A DNA stretch of 44,586 bases. Origin: a bacterium (lineage in GTDB: Bacteria; B130-G9). Within the stretch, counting starts at the first letter, position 1. Each line of letters opens with the position of its first letter. Of this stretch, positions 17,598 to 32,736 are shown in pieces. The stretch is taken from NCBI GenBank assembly GCA_021160245.1, contig JAGHCW010000167.1, forward strand, positions 1-44,586. Direction: 5' to 3'. The notes below the pieces were generated by a model, which worked only from the letters and a program-made list of their open reading frames with translations, ran no database searches and was not told where the DNA came from. The translations under genes were made by a program, and so were the position numbers.

Positions 17598-19085
17598 CTA
17601 CTTGGCGAAGTCCGGCAGCCCAACAGGCTTCGACATCATGTAACGCGAATTGAGGCGCTCGGCCTCTGCGAAATCCGTCATGTTCTCGTCTGTCAGGATA
17701 TGAGGCGTGACAAACATCACCAGCTCTCTTTTGCTCTTAGAGCGCCTAGTCATGCGAAAGAGCTCGCCAAGATATGGGATATCGCCCAGAAGAGGGACCT
17801 TGAAAACCGTCTCCTCCACATCGTCGAACATAAAGCCGCCAATCACAACTGTCCGACCGTCCCGAGCCCTCGCGTAGAGATCGCCTTCCCGGCGGTTTGT
17901 CTGTGGCTGACCACCTACGGTTCCGATGAGAGTCTCGATGTCGGGCTTAATCGCCATAGTGACATAGCCATCAGACGATATCTCGGGTCGAATCTCCAAC
18001 CTAGTTCCAACCTCGCGCCACGCAACCGTCGGCCTATATTCAGTATAGGCCACACCCAGGGGATTGACGTCAGTGGTCTTCACGTATTCGGTGTAAGGAA
18101 TATTGTTGTTGAACTCCATCCGAGCAGTCGTGCGGTCCAGAGCAACTATTTTCGGGGCGGAGACCATATAGAGATCGCCCTGTTGTTCGAGTGCGCGGAG
18201 AATCATGTCCACATGATCGTTTCCGAGCCCAGCATATAGCACCTGGCCCTCCATGGTGCCGCTCAAAAAGGTCATTGCCGCGCCGCCAAGTCCGGACCAT
18301 CCACCCAAATCAATGTCCTTGAAAGACCAGTCTACGCCCAATTGATGATCGCTATCGAGCTTCACCTCACACAACTCAACCTCAATCAATACCTGAGGTC
18401 GTCTGATATCAACAGCCCGAACATACTCCTCTATGTACCTCGCAACGGTCGGATCGCAGTTCAGGAGAGTAAGAGTTCTCGAGGCGGTATCCGATATCAC
18501 CTCACCTCTACCAGCCAATATCTTCTCTATCTGAACTCTAATATCAACCAGCGGCGCCTGCTTCACGCGGAGAACCTTGATCGGCTCGCCCCTTATAATG
18601 ATCAGAAACTTGTTATCAATACGCCATGAGTAACCGAAACTCCGAAGAACTACGTCGAATATCTCCTCAAGCGTGACATTCGAGACGTCAAGGGTTATCT
18701 CGCCCTCAAGCCGCTTCGGGATTATGACATTCAACCCCTTGCCCTTTACTAGGGTCTGGATGACATCATGAAGCTGTGCATCCCGAACCTTGATGTCAAA
18801 TCGCTGCTGCAGTATCGAAGGAACCGGCGACTCGGGCATCCCACTGAGCGCCAAGGACTCGGCTATGTCGATATCCGCAAGATCATCTGGAACCGTTACA
18901 TCGTCGAGACCCGCGAATGCCATCTCATCCTGTAGCAATCCCGGCTCAGCCTCGAACTCTGGCTCCGGCGCTGCCGGCTCGGGCACAGGCGCCCTTACAG
19001 TAGCACATCCCGAAAACAACAGCCCAACTAAGACAAGAGAAAGTATTGCTAGACTATACGTCCCTTTGTTCCATCCGTTCTTCAC
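17598..19085 (-). CDS. Secretin lipoprotein (PilQ/GspD/MshL type)
   Basis: The outer-membrane channel of the pilus or secretion machine. A signal peptide with lipobox LFSGC lipidates C27; an acidic, Pro-rich linker follows. Residues about 95-170 form an STN/N-domain (FDIKVRDAQLHDVI ... ITLDVSNVTLEEI), then a second N domain (PLVDIRVQIEKIL ... TLTLLNCDPTVARYIEEYV), then the secretin core with VEVELCEVKLD, VSAPKIVALDRTTARM, GTRLEIRPEIS and VPLLGDIPYLGELF. 495 residues is short for PilQ and closer to MshL. GTG 19085 is chosen because GGGAGG lies 5 bases upstream and gives a compact signal peptide; a TTG at 19109 is possible. Last gene of the operon. Confidence 0.92.
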   Translation of the reverse strand: MKNGWNKGTYSLAILSLVLVGLLFSGCATVRAPVPEPAAPEPEFEAEPGLLQDEMAFAGLDDVTVPDDLADIDIAESLALSGMPESPVPSILQQRFDIKVRDAQLHDVIQTLVKGKGLNVIIPKRLEGEITLDVSNVTLEEIFDVVLRSFGYSWRIDNKFLIIIRGEPIKVLRVKQAPLVDIRVQIEKILAGRGEVISDTASRTLTLLNCDPTVARYIEEYVRAVDIRRPQVLIEVELCEVKLDSDHQLGVDWSFKDIDLGGWSGLGGAAMTFLSGTMEGQVLYAGLGNDHVDMILRALEQQGDLYMVSAPKIVALDRTTARMEFNNNIPYTEYVKTTDVNPLGVAYTEYRPTVAWREVGTRLEIRPEISSDGYVTMAIKPDIETLIGTVGGQPQTNRREGDLYARARDGRTVVIGGFMFDDVEETVFKVPLLGDIPYLGELFRMTRRSKSKRELVMFVTPHILTDENMTDFAEAERLNSRYMMSKPVGLPDFAK

Positions 19086-19229
19086 TTCTGCCTCCCGTAT
19101 TAAGGACAATGTCCTAATCTACTTGATGCTTCCTAATCCTTATCTTGCCCCAATTACGGGGTCTTCCTCGGCATCCCTAACCAATGAAATAATAAAATGT
19201 CTAAATAAAAATCGCCTCTCCGCGGACAA

Positions 19230-20126
19230 TCATGATTTCTCAGAAATGCCGGCCTCGCTAAGCGATCTCCACGGTGAACCAACGCCATAGCTATAATCAA
19301 GGTTGATAAGTAAGTTACGGACGGTAACAGACTCCGGCGATATCTTGACAATCTTGATCTTTTCTCTTACTTCCGTGGAGTCATCATCTCCACCGACCTC
19401 AATCTCATCCCCCTCCTTGACCACCCATTTCCTACCTGCGGATGGCGGCCACTGCTGGACAACTGCCCATGACTGCGATTCGTTGAACATGATCATGCAG
19501 ATTGTGATCTTGGGCTGGCCCTGAATGTATAACAAATCTCTATGAGCTTCACGCACTCCCGCAGCGGGCTTCCTACGCAGCGCAACGTTTACCGTTGCAA
19601 TCTGCTCAAAATCCGCGAGCCCCTCTGGCACGACCAGATCCGTTATATAAGGCTCATAGCCTTCTTTTCTCAACTCCAACAAATAGGTACCCGCCGGAAA
19701 ACTCACCGGAATCAACCAGTCGGTGGCCCTCGGCATTCTCATACCATTTATATATATTGCCGCGCCGCTTGGTCTCGATCGAATGAAGACTTTCCCAAGC
19801 CCCTCGTTCTTTCGCTGAAACGGCGAACGGCTGGTATCACGGTTCGCGCTGGCAAATGCGGTCACCCAACTTTTGGCGTCCATTGGGGCCTCCGAGACTC
19901 CAACAGCCCCGCGCTCGCGTGCCGCCGGTCTGGCCGCTGGCACACCCGCCGGGACGCCCGTCTCCAGCGCTGCAAGCTCCGGAGCCGTCTCGGCTGGGAC
20001 CGCGCGCCTCGCGCCGCGCGACCCCCCTTTGGATGCACGCTGAATAACCCAGGGGACGAAAACGGTACCGATTACGACCGCCGCCAGAACGAGAACACCT
20101 ATCATTACCCACTTATTCTTAAGCAC
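19230..20126 (-). CDS. PEGA-domain membrane protein in the PilP position
   Basis: 298 residues. One membrane span (6-27) anchors the protein, followed by an Ala/Pro/Arg-rich linker to about 85. A PEGA domain spans about 110-170 (FIRSRPSGAAIYINGMRM ... GTYLLELRKEGYEPY). The C-terminal part (VVKEGDEIEVG ... KIKIVKISPESVTVRN) resembles the beta domain of PilP/GspC that contacts the secretin. Normal PilP is a lipoprotein without a PEGA module. GTG 20126 is chosen because GGAGG is 8 bases upstream. It sits between pilO and the secretin, exactly where pilP belongs, so a bridging role between inner-membrane PilNO and the secretin is likely but inferred. PEGA domains are thought to bind cell-wall or surface structures. 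Confidence 0.75.
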   Translation of the reverse strand: MLKNKWVMIGVLVLAAVVIGTVFVPWVIQRASKGGSRGARRAVPAETAPELAALETGVPAGVPAARPAARERGAVGVSEAPMDAKSWVTAFASANRDTSRSPFQRKNEGLGKVFIRSRPSGAAIYINGMRMPRATDWLIPVSFPAGTYLLELRKEGYEPYITDLVVPEGLADFEQIATVNVALRRKPAAGVREAHRDLLYIQGQPKITICMIMFNESQSWAVVQQWPPSAGRKWVVKEGDEIEVGGDDDSTEVREKIKIVKISPESVTVRNLLINLDYSYGVGSPWRSLSEAGISEKS

Positions 20127-20199: not shown

Positions 20200-20847
20200 T
20201 CAAAAGCCCGCGCTTCTATCGCGCGCCCCGGACTCAAGTAGCGGCGCAGCGATCGCCTCTAGTTGATATGTCTCAATCTCGAGGTTTACCTTTATCCCGG
20301 GCACATCGATCTCGCCCATTTGCTCCTCAATGTCCAATCTTCGGCACTCAAGTCTCTTGATATTGACAAGTCTATCCAAATGGCCGAATCCCTCAAGAAA
20401 GCGAACCAAATCCTTGAATCTACACTCTAGATTCCGTATTGAAATCGGCACAACATAAAATGTAAGATCGCTGCCCGGCAACGTGTTCGGATAGCTATCT
20501 AATTGCTTGAGCGGTATCTGATTTATGCTAGCTCGTTGGGCCGTGGAAGCCAACTGCTCCAATAGCGTCGGTATGTTATAGATGTTCGGAACCTTCAGCA
20601 TCAGAACTTGGGCCTCTTCCCTCATCTTCACCAAGAGTATCCTCTTCTCCGGCAAATGTGATATTAGCTCCTTCGCTCTTACGATTTTGCTTCTCTCGTT
20701 CTTAGTTTTCTGCTCATACTCGCTCGTCTTATTCAATATCGGATTGAATACAGCGAAGTACACTATAACAAGAAAGACTACCGCAGCGCCCGCGATTATG
20801 CCGACTCTTGCCCCAGCTGGAAGCTCGTTGAACCGTCCTAAATTCAT
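20200..20847 (-). CDS. pilO: Type IV pilus alignment protein PilO
   Basis: 215 residues: short cytoplasmic start, one membrane span (about 15-34), a coiled coil (about 38-75, rich in Lys/Glu) and a ferredoxin-like periplasmic domain. IPTLLEQLASTAQRASI and VPISIRNLECRFKDLVRFLEGFGHLDRLVNIK match the PilO core. PilO dimerises with PilN to form the periplasmic alignment frame. It begins 37 bases after the PilM-PilN fusion stop; the ribosome site is weak, suggesting translational coupling. Confidence 0.88.
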   Translation of the reverse strand: MNLGRFNELPAGARVGIIAGAAVVFLVIVYFAVFNPILNKTSEYEQKTKNERSKIVRAKELISHLPEKRILLVKMREEAQVLMLKVPNIYNIPTLLEQLASTAQRASINQIPLKQLDSYPNTLPGSDLTFYVVPISIRNLECRFKDLVRFLEGFGHLDRLVNIKRLECRRLDIEEQMGEIDVPGIKVNLEIETYQLEAIAAPLLESGARDRSAGF

Positions 20848-20884: not shown

Positions 20885-22663
20885 CTAGCCCCGTCGCCTA
20901 ACTGCCTCCCAGAACTGCTGGCCTTCAAGCTTGCAGATTATCCGGAATTCCTTCTTGTATGTGCCCGGGACTATGTCCGAGTAAATTGTGGTTAGCGCAT
21001 TCAGCAACCGCTCTTCCCCACCTTTTGACGCTCCCACGTATGGGCGTGATGCCTCTACGCGCGTTATCGGCTCCTTGTCAGGCTGTAAATAGACGCTATC
21101 AAAAAAAGGCGATTCATCTAGCCGCCTCTGAAATCTACTTATTCGCTCCTGCAATGCGACCTGGGAATCATCGTAGGCATAGCCCTCAAACTCCACCTCC
21201 CACCTAGCTTCGCTAATACTCATCTGCCGGGCGCCTCTATTCCGCCCTCTTCCGCGCCGGGATGACGGGCCCTCGCCCTCGCGCCGGACATCAATGCTCT
21301 GGATGTACATATTATCGGAAATCTGCGAGCCCAGGTTGGCAAAGACGTCCGCCCATAGAGGCTCCGTCTTTGTCAACTTCGCAAGAAGGTCAGAATAACT
21401 CTGGTATCTTCCAATCTCAGTGTTCACGGCCTTGAGTTCATTCAAATCGGGCTTGAGCCCATCGTAAATGACGACTTCCCTCTCATAGAGATTCTTTGCA
21501 TCCTTGAGCTTATCATTCATCCACCAGTACGCCAGGGTGATAAGGCCTAATACTAGAACAACAATCGCGGCATAGACGACCCGTTTGATCGCCATGTACT
21601 GCTGCGCCTTTATCTCCGATGGCAGCAGGTTTATCCTCGCCTCCTTCGGAGGCGTGATTGCCATGCCGATGCAGCCGGAGAATCTTGGACCAAGCGTCTC
21701 CAGCTCAGCCGCCGTCGCCCCAAGCGCGTCAAGATTCACCCCCTCAAGGGGATTGAAGTACTTTATTTCTACGTCCTCAAGCCCCTCAGCAAGGAACTCG
21801 TCAATACGCGGAAGCCTGACTCCCTCGCCACAGACATAGACATTCTTAATTATATTGCCCCTGAACTGCTGCTTGTAATAGAGAAAAGACCTCTTGAGCT
21901 CCGTGGCAACACGCTGCAGAGCAGGAATCTCCTCAATCGAACTCGGACCGCCCACAACGCCCGGCCCAAAGTCCATCTCGCCCTCTTCCTCGCCTTCCTC
22001 GAAGGCCTTCTTCATGTCCACGTAGCCGGTAAATATCTCTCTTTGGAAATAGAGCGTCTCATTCCCCAGAATAAATAGCGTGCTTATCGTCGCTCCGATC
22101 TCAATCAGACCAACAGCCTCGGGAATCCGCCACAAAGAGTTTCTCTCCAACAGCGAATAAAGCGAACCGGAAAGCGTTGCAATCGCGGCCGGGACTATGC
22201 CGAACGTCCTCAGAACGCCGATCTTCTCGTAAACCATGTCCCGGTTCACGTTTACAATCATCACCTGCTGCTTATCCTGCCCACGCTCCTGAAGCATCCG
22301 CAACATCGAGAAATCATAAGTCAGGTCTTCCATCGGGACGGCAGCATCCTTGCGAACCTCTCGCTCCACAACCGCCGCAATCTCCTTACGAGGCATCGGA
22401 GGTAATGACAGAACCCGCGTCCGAACCTCTCGACCAGAAACCGACACAACGACATTCTCAAACTTCTTGCGAGGCGGAAGGCTGGCGATGGCCTCCGAGA
22501 GCGCCTCAGTCTGCTTGGCAATCAATTCATCCGGGGAAGGCGTCTCCTTGAAATCCATGTTGGAGACCCCAAAGGCCTTGACGTTTAGTTCTTTCCCACC
22601 CTCGATCTCGATAATCTTGACCGAACTCGGGTTAATATCTAGTCCAATTACTGTCTTCGCCAT
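20885..22663 (-). CDS. PilM-PilN fusion protein of the pilus alignment complex
   Basis: A 592-residue protein that joins two normally separate proteins. Residues 1-340 are PilM, an actin-like (FtsA-fold) cytoplasmic protein: GLDINPSSVKIIEIEGG, VVVSVSGREVRTRVLSLPPM, LIEIGATISTLFIL and the VYVCGEGVRLPRIDEFL region. Residues 344-348 are INLLP, the conserved N-terminal peptide by which free PilN docks into PilM, then a membrane span (about 362-382), a coiled coil, and the periplasmic PilN domain interrupted by an Arg/Gly/Ser-rich loop (about 462-478). There is no stop, start codon with ribosome site, or frame change at the joint. ATG 22663 has GAGGT upstream. Fusion keeps the pair at 1:1 and tethers ligand to receptor. 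Confidence 0.88.
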   Translation of the reverse strand: MAKTVIGLDINPSSVKIIEIEGGKELNVKAFGVSNMDFKETPSPDELIAKQTEALSEAIASLPPRKKFENVVVSVSGREVRTRVLSLPPMPRKEIAAVVEREVRKDAAVPMEDLTYDFSMLRMLQERGQDKQQVMIVNVNRDMVYEKIGVLRTFGIVPAAIATLSGSLYSLLERNSLWRIPEAVGLIEIGATISTLFILGNETLYFQREIFTGYVDMKKAFEEGEEEGEMDFGPGVVGGPSSIEEIPALQRVATELKRSFLYYKQQFRGNIIKNVYVCGEGVRLPRIDEFLAEGLEDVEIKYFNPLEGVNLDALGATAAELETLGPRFSGCIGMAITPPKEARINLLPSEIKAQQYMAIKRVVYAAIVVLVLGLITLAYWWMNDKLKDAKNLYEREVVIYDGLKPDLNELKAVNTEIGRYQSYSDLLAKLTKTEPLWADVFANLGSQISDNMYIQSIDVRREGEGPSSRRGRGRNRGARQMSISEARWEVEFEGYAYDDSQVALQERISRFQRRLDESPFFDSVYLQPDKEPITRVEASRPYVGASKGGEERLLNALTTIYSDIVPGTYKKEFRIICKLEGQQFWEAVRRRG

Positions 22664-22712: not shown

Positions 22713-23447
22713 CTATTTATATGGATCGGTTCCCGCCAGCGGAAACCACCAATCCTTCTGATAGTCAGTTCCACCTATCATCAGAACAATGTCGTCTATA
22801 TTCTCAGGATAAAGATCATCATTAGTCTTTACCGACGGGCGCCCCGACGACATCACGTCTGTGTGGGCGCCATCACGTCCCGGACTCGCAATGAAGACCC
22901 TTGCCGGCTGAACAGGTACCGCCTCATATCCCTCGTCATACCTAGGGCTTCCGGTGCCCGGCAAAGATGCTCCCTCGCCAACATCCAGTCGCACTGCATA
23001 ATAATCCGGGGCCGCAACGAATGAGTATTTATGGTCCCAAGCATCGTAATAGTAGCCTGTGTCGTCACCGCTCTCCGCGATATATGGACCGTTCCAGCCA
23101 ACCCCATAGGCTGGATCATAAGGCTCGAAGTGCCGAACATGGGAATAAGCCTTGCCACTCGAATCCGACGGATACAAATACCCGTGTTCAGTCATCGTCG
23201 CCGCAAGAACCTTAAGGCCCGTATATACATTCCGGCCATCCGAGACCCAAGTTGGAGGCCACTGATTCATGTGCTCATAATAGCGCAAGATCGCCGTACG
23301 CATGTTCGCCATCTCTTCTCTAGTGGCCGCCTCGTTAGCGTCGTCAAGTACATTAAATATCAATGGTGTCAGCACGCCCGCGAGAAGGGCGATTATCGCA
23401 ATGACAACCACCATCTCAATCAACGTAAAACCCTGGTCTCTAGTCAT
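22713..23447 (-). CDS. Prepilin-type pseudopilin, GspG-like
   Basis: A 244-residue prepilin with a short basic leader cut after Gly (MTRDQG / FTLIEMVVV), the conserved Glu at +5 and a 20-residue hydrophobic helix. The globular part has the GspG-type element GWNGPYI ... DDTGYYYDAWDHKYSF, where GspG binds calcium. The start is moved to ATG 23447 because the ribosome site AGGAG lies 5 bases upstream; an open frame reaching 23462 would add five residues before the leader. It is larger than a usual GspG (about 140), with an extended C-terminal domain. Likely a minor pilin or tip subunit of this operon's fibre. Confidence 0.88.
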   Translation of the reverse strand: MTRDQGFTLIEMVVVIAIIALLAGVLTPLIFNVLDDANEAATREEMANMRTAILRYYEHMNQWPPTWVSDGRNVYTGLKVLAATMTEHGYLYPSDSSGKAYSHVRHFEPYDPAYGVGWNGPYIAESGDDTGYYYDAWDHKYSFVAAPDYYAVRLDVGEGASLPGTGSPRYDEGYEAVPVQPARVFIASPGRDGAHTDVMSSGRPSVKTNDDLYPENIDDIVLMIGGTDYQKDWWFPLAGTDPYK

Positions 23448-23543
23448 CCTCGCTCCTGTCATTACACCGCGTCTCCACTTTCACCTGTGAATCTTGCCTA
23501 TGAGTCTGCGGTGCCCGACAATCCTAAAACAGATAAATAACTG

Positions 23544-24755
23544 CTATTTCTTAATAAACGATATCATGCCGTAGAGTGGCAGAAAGACCGACATCGCAAC
23601 GGTGCCAACAATCATCCCCATTGAGACGATCATCAGCGGCTCAACAATTGCAAAAATGCGCCTGATGGTGTATGGCACTTCCCGGTCGTAGTACTCGCTG
23701 ACCTTCTCTAAAGTCATGTCTAGCTCGCCCGTCTCATCTCCAATTGCAACCATCCGAAGGACAAGCGAGGGAAACTCGCCGCTCTCTGCTAGAGCTTCTG
23801 GCATGGAGCCACCAGCCCGGATCCTATCGTGCGCCTCTCTTATGACTCTGCCGAGAATAACGTTACCAATTACCTGCTCGACAATCCTGAGGCACTCGGT
23901 AATCTCGACACCTGCTCGATATAGCGAGGACATGGTGTGCGCAAAACGAGAAAGCGCAACCTTTCTTATTAGGGGACCGAAGAGTGGCATTTTCAACTTC
24001 ATGCCGTCCCAAATCCGCCTAGCTGCCTTCGACCTCTTCACTAGCACCTTAGAGACGATGAAGAGCACTATCAGGAGGCCCAGCGCATAAAATCCGTAAT
24101 GGAGCATGAACTCACTAATACCGATTACAATCCTAGTCGGTAGAGGCAATTCCATGTCATATTTCTTGAAAATCTTTGCAAATCGAGGAATAGGAAAAAC
24201 AAACAGGAAGACAATAACACCGGAGATTACGGTCATAACAACCGCGGGGTAGGCTATCGCTTCGCGAATACTGGCCTTCAACTGCTCCTGCCACTCCATA
24301 TAAGGAACGAGTCTCTCCATAACCTCATCCACACGACCTGTCGCCTCACCAGCCCTAACCATACTCACATAGAGCTGACTGAAAATTGCGGGATGGCTAG
24401 CCATGGCATCGGCGATCGTAGCGCCATTCTCAACCTGAGAGGTGATATCCGCTATGACCTTTCTAAACCCAGGTTTCTCAGTCTCCCTAGTTAAGTCCTG
24501 AAGGCCTGTCAGAAGCGGAACGCCGGCGGATAATACCGTGCCAAGATGGATTGTGAACGTAATCAGCTCGCGCGGCTTGACCTTTACTCGACTTTTCTTG
24601 GGCTTGCCCTTTGCGCCTCGCGAGCGTGTAACTTTCGTGACCACATAACCCAGCTCACCAAGCCGCTCGACTAGTACGCCGGAGTTCTCAGCCTCCAGCA
24701 CGCCGTCGGTCATGCGCCCGCTTGCATCTCTCGCTTTGTAAGCAAAGACTGGCAA
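23544..24755 (-). CDS. Inner-membrane platform protein PilC/GspF
   Basis: 403 residues with two T2SSF domains, each ending in membrane spans (about 170-190, 220-240, 375-395). Start FAYKARDASGRMTDGVLEAEN, FTIHLGTVLSAGVPLLTGL, MVRAGEATGRVDEVMERL and the repeat copy MVAIGDETGELDMTLEKVSEYYD are typical. It couples the ATPase to pilin insertion and extraction. A TTG at 24755 starts the gene, with GGAG a few bases upstream; it matches the family start MPVFAYKA. It lies 35 bases after the ATPase gene. Confidence 0.93.
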   Translation of the reverse strand: MPVFAYKARDASGRMTDGVLEAENSGVLVERLGELGYVVTKVTRSRGAKGKPKKSRVKVKPRELITFTIHLGTVLSAGVPLLTGLQDLTRETEKPGFRKVIADITSQVENGATIADAMASHPAIFSQLYVSMVRAGEATGRVDEVMERLVPYMEWQEQLKASIREAIAYPAVVMTVISGVIVFLFVFPIPRFAKIFKKYDMELPLPTRIVIGISEFMLHYGFYALGLLIVLFIVSKVLVKRSKAARRIWDGMKLKMPLFGPLIRKVALSRFAHTMSSLYRAGVEITECLRIVEQVIGNVILGRVIREAHDRIRAGGSMPEALAESGEFPSLVLRMVAIGDETGELDMTLEKVSEYYDREVPYTIRRIFAIVEPLMIVSMGMIVGTVAMSVFLPLYGMISFIKK

Positions 24756-24790: not shown

Positions 24791-26569
24791 TCAGATCTCG
24801 ACCTCAGCTGATAGCAGCGTCACTCGACGCACCTCATCGATCGTTGATACGCCCGCCAAAACCTTGCTCATGCCATCGTTAAACATTGATAACATGCCCA
24901 TCTTTCGAGCTAGCCGCCTGATATCCTCAATAGACGTGCCCTTTTTCTCCGCCAGGGACTGCAGCTTCCTGTTCATCACAATGAGCTCAAATATCGCGAC
25001 TCGGCCCTTGTAACCCGTTTGATTGCAATATGAGCAACCCTTGCCCTTGTAGAGAGTCAGCACCTCGTCCTTCCGCTGAATCGACTCCTTGTCCTGGACA
25101 ATCGACTCCAGCGCATCCAGGCCAAGCGTCCCCTCCATAGCCTCCCTATGCATCTCGAGGATTCTCGCGTCATCGGCAGTCGGCTCATACGCCTCCTTGC
25201 AGTTGGGGCAAATAACTCGAACCAGCCTTTGAGCCATAATCCCCAAAATAGATGATGCCACAAGGAACGGCTCAATACCCATATCCATAAGACGAGGTAG
25301 GGCGCCCGCGGCATCGTTCGTATGGAGCGTGGACAACACCAAATGCCCTGTAAGCGCGGCCCTTACCGCAAGCTCCGCAGTCTCCGGGTCTCTAATCTCT
25401 CCGACAAGAATAACGTCCGGATCCTGCCGGAGCATCGAACGCAACCCCAGGGCAAATGTGAACCCGGCTTTTTCGTTTATCTCTGATTGCTGGATTATCG
25501 GCAACTGGTACTCGACAGGGTCCTCAAGAGTACATACTTTTCTCGCTAGCGTATTTACATGAGAAATCGCCGAATACAATGTCGTTGTCTTACCACTACC
25601 AGTAGGACCAGTTACTAGAATAATCCCATAAGGCATATCAAGCAGCTTCTCAAACTCGTCCCTCTCCTTCACGGGAAAACCGAGCTTTGTTAGATCGAGC
25701 TGCAACGAGGCGCGATCGAGCAACCTGAGTACCGCGTTCTCCCCAGTAACCGTCGGGAAGACCGACACGCGAATATCTATGCGGCGCCTGCCGGCGCTAA
25801 ACTCGATCTTACCGTCCTGGGGGATACGACGTTCGGCGATATTCAAGGCCGCCATGATTTTGATTCTTGATATGATTGGTTCTCTGAGGTCCAAAGGCAC
25901 GGTCTTCCGCTGATGCAGCATGCCGTCAATCCTGAACCTCACTCTCATCAGCTTCTCGTCTGGCTCAAAATGGATGTCCGTCGTCCGCTCGTGGATCGCC
26001 TGGACAATTATCCTGTCCACAAGCTTGATAATCGGCGCTTGCGCTGCTGCTTCCTCTATGTCACCCAGACCGGCGCCTGCGCGCTTCTTCTGGGTTTCCT
26101 CAGCCATCCGCATTCCTTCGTCGATTATATCCTCAACGTCCTCGTCTGAGCCGTAAAACTTCTCTAACGCCTTCTCCATCTCGGCATCAGTGACACTCAA
26201 GGGGCGTATCTGCAGACCTGTCCGGCGCTCTAACGCGTCAACCACGTTGACGTCGTAAGCGTTAACCATAGCGACTGTTAAGGTAAATTCTTCTTTCTGA
26301 AGAGGTAAAACGCTCTTCTCACGACAGAAGTCGCTGGGGATAAGCTTCAGCACATCGTCCTCAATATCAGCCTCTTCTAAGTCCACCTCTGACTGCGAGC
26401 CCTCGCGGCCGGATAATGCATTCACCAAATCGCCCTCGGATATAAACCCGAGGTCAAAGAGTATCTGGCCCAAAAGCTCGCCGGTTCGCCTCTGCTCGCT
26501 CAAGGCAAGATCGAGCTGCTGCTCGTCTATGAGCCCGATCTCTTTTAGCTTCTCACCTAATAACGCCAT
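24791..26569 (-). CDS. Assembly ATPase PilB/GspE
   Basis: 592 residues. The N-terminal MshEN-like repeats (LGEKLKEIGLIDEQQLDLAL and LGQILFDLGFISEGDL) correspond to the module that binds cyclic di-GMP in MshE, but the leading Arg of each RLG motif is not kept (ALLG, ELLG). The motor domain has Walker A GPTGSGKTT (K327), the Asp box, Walker B region LRQDPDVILVGEIRD and the His box TGHLVLSTLHTND. A four-cysteine zinc site (CPNC ... CSYC) near 460-520 is typical of extension ATPases. No retraction ATPase (PilT) is encoded in the window, as in type II secretion. Starts at ATG 26569 after a 212-base gap. Confidence 0.94.
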   Translation of the reverse strand: MALLGEKLKEIGLIDEQQLDLALSEQRRTGELLGQILFDLGFISEGDLVNALSGREGSQSEVDLEEADIEDDVLKLIPSDFCREKSVLPLQKEEFTLTVAMVNAYDVNVVDALERRTGLQIRPLSVTDAEMEKALEKFYGSDEDVEDIIDEGMRMAEETQKKRAGAGLGDIEEAAAQAPIIKLVDRIIVQAIHERTTDIHFEPDEKLMRVRFRIDGMLHQRKTVPLDLREPIISRIKIMAALNIAERRIPQDGKIEFSAGRRRIDIRVSVFPTVTGENAVLRLLDRASLQLDLTKLGFPVKERDEFEKLLDMPYGIILVTGPTGSGKTTTLYSAISHVNTLARKVCTLEDPVEYQLPIIQQSEINEKAGFTFALGLRSMLRQDPDVILVGEIRDPETAELAVRAALTGHLVLSTLHTNDAAGALPRLMDMGIEPFLVASSILGIMAQRLVRVICPNCKEAYEPTADDARILEMHREAMEGTLGLDALESIVQDKESIQRKDEVLTLYKGKGCSYCNQTGYKGRVAIFELIVMNRKLQSLAEKKGTSIEDIRRLARKMGMLSMFNDGMSKVLAGVSTIDEVRRVTLLSAEVEI

Positions 26570-26781: not shown

Positions 26782-27402
26782 CTACTTGGTTCGATAACCT
26801 ATATCGTCGAAGTGTGGCTCAGTTGCCCAGACCGGGGTGTCAAGCTCAAAACCCGGACCTGCACTCAGGCACCAAACATGATAGTTCGGACCCTGGTTTA
26901 CGCCATAGTCGAAACAGCCCACCGACACAACATACTTGTACGCCCACGGATCATCGGTAACATACGGCAGATACGGTCCCTTCCAGCCATGCGCCAGAAC
27001 ACCCATCATGACACGGTCAGACCCAGTCCCAGCACGCACTCTCGGCGTCCTATAGTAGGTCGGATTCGCATCCTCACCATTCGTTACTAAATGGAAGTAC
27101 ATATCGCTTGCCTTAGAACCCCAGCAACTGGCAGCCTCGCTTTTAAAGTCTGGCAGGTCGCCCATATTACCGTAGATATAGTCGAAATACGCTTTCCGCG
27201 TCTCGTTGCAGTAGGGCCACGTTCCTGTATCCTTGTGGAACAGCAGCAAAGCGGTGGAAATGTTACGGCAATCGCCGAGTGCCCTGGTCTCATTCGCCTC
27301 ATCGATATACTTGAAAATCAATGGGGTTAGGATACCAGCCAACAAAGCAATAATGGCGACAACCACAACCACCTCAATCAACGTAAATCCTTTTTTGCTC
27401 AT
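26782..27402 (-). CDS. Prepilin-type pilin/pseudopilin, GspG-like (first gene of operon)
   Basis: 206 residues: leader MSKKG, cleavage before FTLIEVVVVVAIIALL, Glu at +5, a long hydrophobic helix, then a globular domain with HGWKGPYLPYVTDDPWAYKY, the GspG calcium-loop pattern. Four cysteines occur after the helix (RNCR-like C, WPYC, SCWG, VGCF; one more near WCLS), so disulfides are possible. The start is decided by GGAGG (27410-27414): ATG 27402 is 7 bases from it, ATG 27405 only 4. Being first, with its own 3' hairpin, it is the best candidate for the major subunit of the fibre. The first 60 residues closely match the second pilin at 22713-23447. Confidence 0.88.
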   Translation of the reverse strand: MSKKGFTLIEVVVVVAIIALLAGILTPLIFKYIDEANETRALGDCRNISTALLLFHKDTGTWPYCNETRKAYFDYIYGNMGDLPDFKSEAASCWGSKASDMYFHLVTNGEDANPTYYRTPRVRAGTGSDRVMMGVLAHGWKGPYLPYVTDDPWAYKYVVSVGCFDYGVNQGPNYHVWCLSAGPGFELDTPVWATEPHFDDIGYRTK

Positions 27403-27430
27403 CATTTCACCTCCCTTACTCTGCATTTGG

Positions 27431-28932: not shown

Positions 28933-30360
28933 TCAGCGCCTCTTCTCAAAAAGCAGGTATTTGAAAAAGCCATAAGCGGTTGAGGCGTAGTATTTGAGGG
29001 CCTGGGGGCTTTTTATGCGTTTAAGCGTTGCGAGGATGAAGCTGGGCGATAGGGAATAGCGAAGGTAGAACCAACGCTGGAGCTTGACCAGGTCGTCGGC
29101 CGAGAAGTGCTCGGTGTGCCATGAGGGCTGCGTATGTGTGCAGTCGAACTTCTCCCAATCGATCTCATCTGGCATATAGCCACCAGCCTGCATCATCTCG
29201 TTCAGCTCTGTTCCCGGGAAGGGCGTTACGACGTTGACCACGATGAAATCGGGCGCGATGCGCCTCGCCAGTTTCAGCGTCATCTTCACCTCTTCGAGCG
29301 TCTCGGTCGGGTGGCTCCCAATGATGAAGAAGGCCTGAGTAACGAGGCCGACGCGTTTGGCAGCGTCAAACGCCGTGACGATTTCCTCCTGCGTGGTTCT
29401 CTTCTTGATCAGTCTGCGAACTCGCTCGCTTCCCGATTCGACGCCGAACGCGACCTTCTTGCAGCCGGCGGCCTTCATCCGGACAAGCATTTTCTCATCG
29501 ACGGCGTTGACCCGCGTGTCGCAGTCCCAGCTAACGCCGAGTGATGAGAAGCCATCGAGTATCTCATAGAGTCGCTTCTTGTTGAGCGTGAACGTGTCGT
29601 CGTCGATCGTAAAATGGTCGAATCCATGGCGCTCTTTGCATTCTTTGACCTCGGCCAAAACGTGCTCTGCGGAACGGAAGCGGAGCTTGCGGGAGAACGT
29701 GATCTTTGAGGCGCAGAAAGTGCAGTCTTCGGCGCAGCCTCTTGATGTGAATAGGACGGTTGAGTTGCTTGCGGAATCCCCTACACCTGGCGTTGTGCCA
29801 CCCTTGTATAGTTCGAGGTCAAGAAGATGCCTCGCGGGCTGCGGCATGGTATCGAGGTCCCTGATTAGCGGACGCCTGGGCTCGACTATCGTCTCGGAGC
29901 CGTTTCGATATGCAATGCCGAGAATGCCGTCGAGTTTTGGTTTTGCGCTCTCTGATCGCCGCTCGCAGACCTCAAGCAGAGTCACCTCACCCTCCCCCAG
30001 AACGGCGATATCGAACGCCCTAAACTCATCAAGCGAACGCTCTGGCAGAGCGCTGATGTGGGGTCCGCCAGCAACGGTCGTCGCCTCCGGCAACTGTTCT
30101 TTCACGATTTTGGCGAGGCGGTTTGCGGCCACGACGGTCGGCGAGAGGCAAGTGAATCCGACGAGATCGGGACTATAATCGATGAGCCTTTCTGCGAAAT
30201 CCTCATCGGAGAGATGCTCGACCTCAAAGTCGATTATTCGCGTCTCGATGCCGACTTGGAGCAGATAAGCAGCTAGGCTTGCGATATTTATAGGATGCTG
30301 AACCGAGCTCTTCTCAAGTCCACCCATTATTCTGGGCGGCCTCACTATGAGCACCTTCAA
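28933..30360 (-). CDS. B12-binding-domain radical SAM protein
   Basis: 475 residues. A Rossmann-like cobalamin-binding domain occupies about 1-135 (KVLIVRPPR, GFTCLSPTVVAANRLAKIV, VAGGPHISALPE, LGEGE). The radical SAM core from about 195 has the [4Fe-4S] motif C209-x3-C213-x2-C216 (CAEDCTFC), GFDHFTIDDDTFTL, VAFGVESGSERVRRLIKK and the SAM-binding FFIIGSHPTET. The base-off cobalamin motif DxHxxG is not visible, as in many members. The C-terminal 100 residues are basic and aromatic. Relatives methylate or rearrange unactivated carbons. A TTG at 30360 gives the family start MKVLIVRPP. Downstream of the NusG-II and carbamoyltransferase genes, probably in one operon. Substrate unknown. Confidence 0.88.
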   Translation of the reverse strand: MKVLIVRPPRIMGGLEKSSVQHPINIASLAAYLLQVGIETRIIDFEVEHLSDEDFAERLIDYSPDLVGFTCLSPTVVAANRLAKIVKEQLPEATTVAGGPHISALPERSLDEFRAFDIAVLGEGEVTLLEVCERRSESAKPKLDGILGIAYRNGSETIVEPRRPLIRDLDTMPQPARHLLDLELYKGGTTPGVGDSASNSTVLFTSRGCAEDCTFCASKITFSRKLRFRSAEHVLAEVKECKERHGFDHFTIDDDTFTLNKKRLYEILDGFSSLGVSWDCDTRVNAVDEKMLVRMKAAGCKKVAFGVESGSERVRRLIKKRTTQEEIVTAFDAAKRVGLVTQAFFIIGSHPTETLEEVKMTLKLARRIAPDFIVVNVVTPFPGTELNEMMQAGGYMPDEIDWEKFDCTHTQPSWHTEHFSADDLVKLQRWFYLRYSLSPSFILATLKRIKSPQALKYYASTAYGFFKYLLFEKRR

Positions 30361-30903: not shown

Positions 30904-32595
30904 CTACACCTCTTTCTTGACGACCATAAAATTGCCAATCGCAAGGTATTTGAGAGCCGTGTTCCTGAAGGTTGACAGCGCGTTCTTTGGCGCACAGGCG
31001 ATCGGAACGCCTCGCTCGTTAAACGACGTGTTCATAAGGATTGGGACACCGGTGATCTTCTCAAACTCCAGCAGCAATCGTCTGTAGCGTTTTGCCCTTG
31101 AATTCGGGGCAACGGACTGAACCCTCGCGCTGGCATCGGCATGAACGACAGATGGGACCTTATTCCTCATCTCATCCTTAAATTGCAGATTCAGCGTCAT
31201 AAATGGCGTTGGGTAAGGATTAACAAACCAGTCGGCCATCCGCTCCTCAAGGATTACCGGCGCCAATGGTCGCCATCGCTCCCGGGCCTTGATGTCGTTG
31301 ACGATGTCTTTCATGTCGTCGTTTATTGGGCTGGCAAGGATGCTCCGTGCGCCAAGTGCCCTGGGGCCAAACTCCATCCGGCCCTGGAACCATCCTACGG
31401 GCTTGTTCGCGGCTAGAAGCTCAGCGGTCGGCTTCTCAATGTTATCATGAAACGTGAACTCGATGTTCGGCTCATCATCGAGGGTCATCTTGATCTCCCC
31501 GTTCGAGTATTCCGGCCCGAGGAATGCGTCCTCCATGACGCCCGGTGGTGGCTGGCCTCTCTTATGGGCTACCCATAGGGCAGCGCCGAGGGCAGCGCCC
31601 ATGTCCATTGCGGCCGGCTGGACGAAGATGTCATCCACGAACTCTGAGTTCAAAAGATGCGAGTTCATCACGCAGTTAAGCGAGACTCCTCCGCCGAGGC
31701 AGAGATTCGGACAGCCGGTCTTTGCGTGCATGAACTTGGTCAGTTCAAGTGCTGTGGACTCGAGCCTTTCCTGAAGTGTGGCGGCAATGTCCTTGTGGAT
31801 ATCCATGATCGGCTGGGTATCTCTTGCAAATTTCCAGAGCTTTCTCAGCTCTTTGAAGTCAACGTCATAAGAATATGGATACGATTTGAGGTACTTCCCG
31901 AGCTCCTCCCGAGGAGTGCCGTAAGCAGATAAGCCCATCGTTTTGCCCGCGTCAAAATAGACAAAGCCGCATATCTGCGACACAGTGCGATAGAGCGTGC
32001 CCAGGGACTGATGGGGGTGCCATTGCTTGATGGGAATCAGCTCGCCATCCTTGCCATAAAACAGCGATGTGGGCGACTCGTCGCCGACGCCATCGGTAAC
32101 AAAGACATTCGCTCTGCCAAACCCCGAGCAGTAATAGGCGCTCGCCGCATGGGCGATGTGATGCTTGACGAAGACAACCTCCCCAAAACGCTTCGCAAGA
32201 TTGGCAAGATACCTCCGCCGCTTCCAGAAATACCCATACGTTGCCCCCGGTATGATGTTCATGCCGGGGTCGTTCTTCGATTTCTGTGCAAAGGCGCTTT
32301 TGACCGACATCTTCTGGCTCGCCTCGGAGAAAATGTCGAAGAGCATCTTCATCATCCTGGCAGGCGAAACGTCAAAACTGATTGCCACGGCGTCTATCTC
32401 ACGCTCTTGAATGCCGAAATAGTCGAGACACCAGTTTATTGAATAGTCGGGCGGTTTGCCCATGAGGCACAGTCCCAGGGCGTGCTTCTCGCCAGAAAGC
32501 CGCTCCTCCTCGACTGCGCCCAGTATCTTGCCATCCTTCACCAGGACGGCTGATGTGTCGTGCAGTAGTTCGTTTATTCCAAGAATGTAACCCAC
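30904..32595 (-). CDS. NodU/CmcH-type carbamoyltransferase
   Basis: 563 residues. The N-terminal Kae1-like domain holds VKHHIAHAASAYYCSGF (metal and active-site histidines), TDGVGDESPTSLFYG and the nucleotide loop NLCLGGGVSLNC; the C-terminal YrdC-like part has EFGPRALGARSIL and RWRPLAPVILEE. These enzymes make carbamoyl-AMP from carbamoyl phosphate and ATP and move the carbamoyl group to a hydroxyl of a sugar or natural product. GTG 32595 is chosen because AGGAGAG lies just upstream; the frame is open to a TTG at 32610. Heading a set with NusG-II and radical SAM proteins, it may modify a lipid, glycan or secondary metabolite; the acceptor is unknown. Confidence 0.9.
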   Translation of the reverse strand: MGYILGINELLHDTSAVLVKDGKILGAVEEERLSGEKHALGLCLMGKPPDYSINWCLDYFGIQEREIDAVAISFDVSPARMMKMLFDIFSEASQKMSVKSAFAQKSKNDPGMNIIPGATYGYFWKRRRYLANLAKRFGEVVFVKHHIAHAASAYYCSGFGRANVFVTDGVGDESPTSLFYGKDGELIPIKQWHPHQSLGTLYRTVSQICGFVYFDAGKTMGLSAYGTPREELGKYLKSYPYSYDVDFKELRKLWKFARDTQPIMDIHKDIAATLQERLESTALELTKFMHAKTGCPNLCLGGGVSLNCVMNSHLLNSEFVDDIFVQPAAMDMGAALGAALWVAHKRGQPPPGVMEDAFLGPEYSNGEIKMTLDDEPNIEFTFHDNIEKPTAELLAANKPVGWFQGRMEFGPRALGARSILASPINDDMKDIVNDIKARERWRPLAPVILEERMADWFVNPYPTPFMTLNLQFKDEMRNKVPSVVHADASARVQSVAPNSRAKRYRRLLLEFEKITGVPILMNTSFNERGVPIACAPKNALSTFRNTALKYLAIGNFMVVKKEV

Positions 32596-32736
32596 TTCTC
32601 TCCTACCCAATCAGAACTAAAGGCCCGAGCCTCGCAATCGCTCGTTAGCCCTGTCGAATCTCAGACAGTCCATTGCGGCAATGACTTATCGTATCAAATG
32701 GCCAGACGTTCCCTCCTCCTCGGAAGCCCCTTCCCG

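Follow-up and report, generated by a model that had tools for sequence, protein, structure and literature searches.

A probable GspL-type stator protein joining PilM and PilN in a type IV filament gene cluster of Candidatus Coatesbacteria

We identify a 592-residue protein, encoded in a 44,586-nucleotide stretch of a Coatesbacteria genome (hereafter the window), as a fused PilM–PilN (GspL-type) stator protein of a type IV filament machine that probably works in a GspL-like manner (estimated probability 0.88), and report its domain order, conservation, gene context and periplasmic fold. The PilM–PilN join is real, yet ordinary and widespread, and is known from type II secretion systems (T2SS; GspL) and several pilus systems. 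The minus strand of positions 22,663–20,885 forms one uninterrupted open reading frame (ORF), and the plus strand of the same interval contains many stops. As the initial annotation had proposed, this frame holds PilM and PilN in one polypeptide, with both domains present, and its translation places INLLP at residues 344–348 right after the PilM fold, separated from it by a linker of eight residues (336–343). The further proposal that the receptor PilM and its ligand INLLP are covalently linked, with their stoichiometry locked, is borne out by the single ORF: the two are covalently joined and therefore present at 1:1.

The N-terminal part of the protein belongs with PilM. PilM_2 (PF11104) matches residues 7–335 at 54.3 bits, above the Pfam cut-off of 27, and the fusion is far closer to PilM models than to the GspL model, with 91.2 bits for TIGR01175 (PilM; curated cut-off 133) against 12.2 bits for TIGR01709 (GspL; curated cut-off 65), both below their cut-offs. 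PDB sequence matches of the fusion include the PilM structures 3jc8, 2ych and 5eou. The Amuc_1101 family of PilM-like proteins (NF045709, 608 positions) has a similar length and gives a partial match (E 4e-35), but membership in that family is ruled out by a score of 121.7 bits where the curated cut-off is 650.

Evidence for PilN in the C-terminal half comes from several comparisons. The HMM scan suggested in the initial annotation finds both domains, with Pfam PilN (PF05137) matching residues 440–527 at 20.4 bits, just below the cut-off of 22.8, and reaching 25.9 bits, above the cut-off, in a genome search that adds neighbouring stretches in the frame. When a profile built from the PilN half and its two kin was compared with a set of 13 free-standing PilN proteins, it matched them at 98% probability (E 6e-14), and in this alignment the N-terminal (K/R)INLLP of free PilN falls on RINLLP of the fusion; a control comparison with the neighbouring PilO family gave 28% probability. 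Searched by sequence against the PDB, the PilN half returned nothing relevant. A structure model of residues 343–592 (pLDDT 60) finds its best fold matches in GspL proteins, namely XcpY (Z 8.2, 72 residues, 2.1 Å) and EpsL (Z 7.8), followed by Thermus PilN 4bhq (Z 7.4, 79 residues, 4.0 Å) and PilO (Z 7.0), with unrelated ferredoxin-like proteins reaching Z 7.5; Z values of 7–8 are weak taken alone and, with the sequence evidence, fit a PilN/GspL fold. Within one chain, a single transmembrane helix precedes the ferredoxin-like domain of PilN/GspL type (Table 1). The Arg/Gly-rich loop noted earlier in the PilN half is real, and its R/G bias is common to both kin even as the residue letters differ; it is a low-confidence part of the structure model.

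Table 1. Positions in the window of the fused ORF, its parts and the neighbouring filament genes
Feature	Positions	Strand	Basis or remark
PilM–PilN fusion ORF, 592 aa	20885..22663	-	sequence, Pfam, kin comparison
PilM actin-like cytoplasmic domain, residues 7-335	21659..22645	-	PF11104, TIGR01175, PDB sequence matches
Internal AAGGAGG	21640..21646	-	5 nt before ATA codon of I344
INLLP peptide, residues 344-348, counterpart of PilN N-terminus	21620..21634	-	sequence; alignment with free PilN; kin
Single transmembrane helix, about residues 362-380	21524..21580	-	hydropathy maximum 2.42 at 362-380
Arg/Gly-rich loop, about residues 469-479	21227..21259	-	insertion in PilN fold vs free PilN
PilN/GspL ferredoxin-like periplasmic domain, about residues 441-579	20927..21343	-	PF05137, profile match, fold matches
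Type IV pilin-like protein, GspG-type N-terminus	26782..27426	-	profile matches
Assembly ATPase PilB/GspE with MshEN domain	24791..26569	-	PF00437 442 bits, PF05157 64 bits
Platform protein PilC/GspF	23544..24755	-	PF00482 194 bits
Type IV pilin-like protein	22713..23462	-	N_methyl
PilO	20200..20847	-	PF04350 42 bits
Transmembrane and PEGA-domain protein, PilP/GspC position	19230..20126	-	PF08308 34 bits; sequence
Secretin, PilQ/GspD type	17598..19109	-	PF00263 137 bits; TIGR02517 186, TIGR02515 183 bits

The same ORF occurs in two kin genomes of the same family (G001 and G002), with 68% identity over all 592 residues, INLLP or INLVP at the peptide site and an identical gene order as far as the kin contigs extend. 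A scan of genomic contigs with the single protein returned only one relative, in a Candidatus Coatesbacteria MAG that is one of these two. Across the join, pN/pS values of 0.31–0.62 indicate coding sequence, with the linker and transmembrane helix higher than PilM. With a draft genome of 244 contigs as the source, one might suspect an assembly or sequencing error that deleted a stop codon or altered the reading frame between two genes. This explanation, to which we give practically no credence, is refuted by the kin: because the ORF, its gene order included, recurs without stops in two separate genomes, the join is not a sequencing error. The initial annotation was correct that no stop interrupts it, and the kin show no frameshift either.

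The initial annotation had also stated that no ribosome site lies at the join. Taken strictly this is inaccurate, since an AAGGAGG sits 5 nt ahead of the INLLP codons ATA AAC CTG CTG and might allow translation of a separate PilN to begin at or close to them, giving both fused and free PilN. Such an internal start is nonetheless very improbable: no ATG, GTG or TTG is suitably spaced behind the motif, neither of the kin has it, and AAGGAGG occurs ten times in the window, several copies lying within genes.

The gene neighbourhood is that of a filament machine. In order of transcription, all on the minus strand, genes for a pilin-like protein, PilB/GspE with an MshEN domain, PilC/GspF and a second pilin-like protein lead to the PilM–PilN gene, followed by PilO, the transmembrane and PEGA-domain protein and the secretin, so that ATPase, platform, PilO/GspM and secretin genes all lie beside the fusion. 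HMM scores do not decide between a type IV pilus (T4P) and a T2SS for this cluster: T2SS and T4P models give almost the same scores for the ATPase and for the secretin, and GspF is somewhat favoured for the platform protein. Among the eight genes scanned in the cluster, neither PilT nor PilP turned up; in the PEGA protein, which has an N-terminal transmembrane segment, the C-terminal portion may by impression be an HR-like region of PilP/GspC. Upstream of the filament genes lie a B12-binding radical SAM protein (28,933–30,360, minus strand; best match HpnJ-like, below cut-off) and a NodU-type carbamoyltransferase (30,904–32,610, minus strand).

Elsewhere in the genome, two PilT-family matches, of the kind expected for a retracting type IVa pilus, exceed the curated cut-off, on contigs C157 and C125 away from the cluster, within a total of four PilT-like ATPase matches (the others on C165 and C86). 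Only two PilN domains were found in the genome and both lie in fused frames, one in the window and one on contig C4, which carries a full T2SS cluster with GspE, GspM and GspD over cut-off together with GspI-like and GspK-like proteins. The protein in the GspL position of that T2SS (L034:7494-9368, 624 aa) is also fused and keeps INLLP before its transmembrane helix; its counterpart in kin genome G002 (L103) has ANLLP. A lone PilM-like protein of 375 aa on contig C108 (L035:3434-4561) has no PilN beside it and lies between a transporter-like gene and other genes that look unrelated.

Published cases show that the arrangement is already known, T4P included. GspL/PulL is described as a natural fusion of PilM and PilN, in contact with the ATPase and stimulating it (PMC10191384, PMC6325625); in Thermus, PilN-bound PilM stimulates the ATPase, as GspL stimulates GspE (PMC6325625). 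Like the Coatesbacteria protein, GspL, PulL, EpsL and XcpY combine a PilM-like cytoplasmic domain, one transmembrane helix and a PilN-like ferredoxin domain in one chain, and their genes adjoin those for the ATPase, platform, GspM/PilO-type protein and secretin; unlike them, the fusion scores far higher with PilM models than with the GspL model and keeps INLLP. A single gene also encodes PilM and PilN in T4P-type clusters of Clostridioides difficile (PMC6916266) and in most T4P clusters of Campylobacterota (PMC11870540); these are distant lineages, and for monoderms an interaction motif unlike that of diderms is reported (PMC6916266). A search of the papers available returned none on type IV pili in Coatesbacteria.

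The rarity of the fusion implied by the initial annotation is not borne out by these precedents or by a survey of 241 genomes. PilN matches occurred in 169 of these, and among the matches listed, 45 of 150 PilN-domain places lay in frames of at least 450 aa. We fetched 40 of the 45 long frames together with fused relatives, giving 48 proteins, in which Pfam found PilN in 44 and PilM_2 in 36 and NCBIfam found the PilM model in 38 and GspL in 11; one frame counted among the fused (L114) is matched by no PilM model in NCBIfam and may represent read-through. With the window's kin left out, 20 of 38 distant fused proteins with a clear transmembrane helix carry an INLLP-like motif 15–25 residues (median 19) before that helix, compared to a mean of 0.9 and a maximum of 5 in shuffled segments and to 2 of 173 other segments of the same fused proteins; in 13 free PilN proteins the motif lies 14–28 residues from the helix. 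About half of the fused proteins thus retain the peptide at its position. In a quick tree built from 62 PilM parts, which has weak deep forks and long branches and rows chosen by different searches, almost all separate PilMs fall apart from the fused ones with 3 label changes (17.7 in shuffles), and this split tells against T4aP genes having been joined recently.

From the combined evidence, we infer that the protein most likely works as a GspL-like stator arm that links the PilB/GspE ATPase with the PilO layer of the periplasm, through ATPase contact, cis docking, PilO pairing and force transmission. The actin-like PilM domain would lie in the cytoplasm around the PilB/GspE ATPase, and the short linker would lead to INLLP. 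The peptide most likely inserts into the PilM groove of its own chain and, once docked, would hold that PilM domain against the membrane. The transmembrane helix would then pass into a coiled-coil and the ferredoxin-like PilN domain, which would pair in the periplasm with PilO, encoded by the next gene. With the fusion setting PilM and PilN at 1:1, ATPase-driven movement would cross the membrane to PilO and onward, as proposed here by likeness to GspL.

Whether the peptide docks in cis or in trans bears on this arrangement. The linker of only eight residues means that cis docking may be strained, and in T4P machines PilM and PilN are arranged as rings (PMC6916266), so INLLP might instead dock into the PilM of a neighbouring protomer, the fusion tying the cytoplasmic ring together. 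The engineered Pseudomonas aeruginosa PilM–PilN chimera in PDB 5eou argues against this: it likewise carries PilM, a linker and ARINLLP in one chain and aligns with the fusion through ARINLLP, with a linker only three residues longer, although it contains the peptide without a transmembrane or periplasmic part. Because this chimera has nearly the same linker, cis docking of INLLP on its own PilM is favoured and docking in trans appears unlikely; more doubtful still is a version in which INLLP on its eight-residue linker docks in the neighbour and the resulting chain of swapped peptides closes a stator ring that is permanently PilN-bound. A full-length AlphaFold2 model from a two-row alignment (mean pLDDT 41) was too poor to place INLLP or to bear on the earlier suggestion that the covalent link may alter the on-off binding of PilM and PilN.

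The protein adds Candidatus Coatesbacteria to the lineages in which fused PilM–PilN proteins are known. In many fused proteins the PilN peptide lies at about the membrane distance of free PilN, which suggests that docking between PilM and the peptide still matters after fusion, and natural fusions of this kind can serve to test models of PilM switching by PilN binding.
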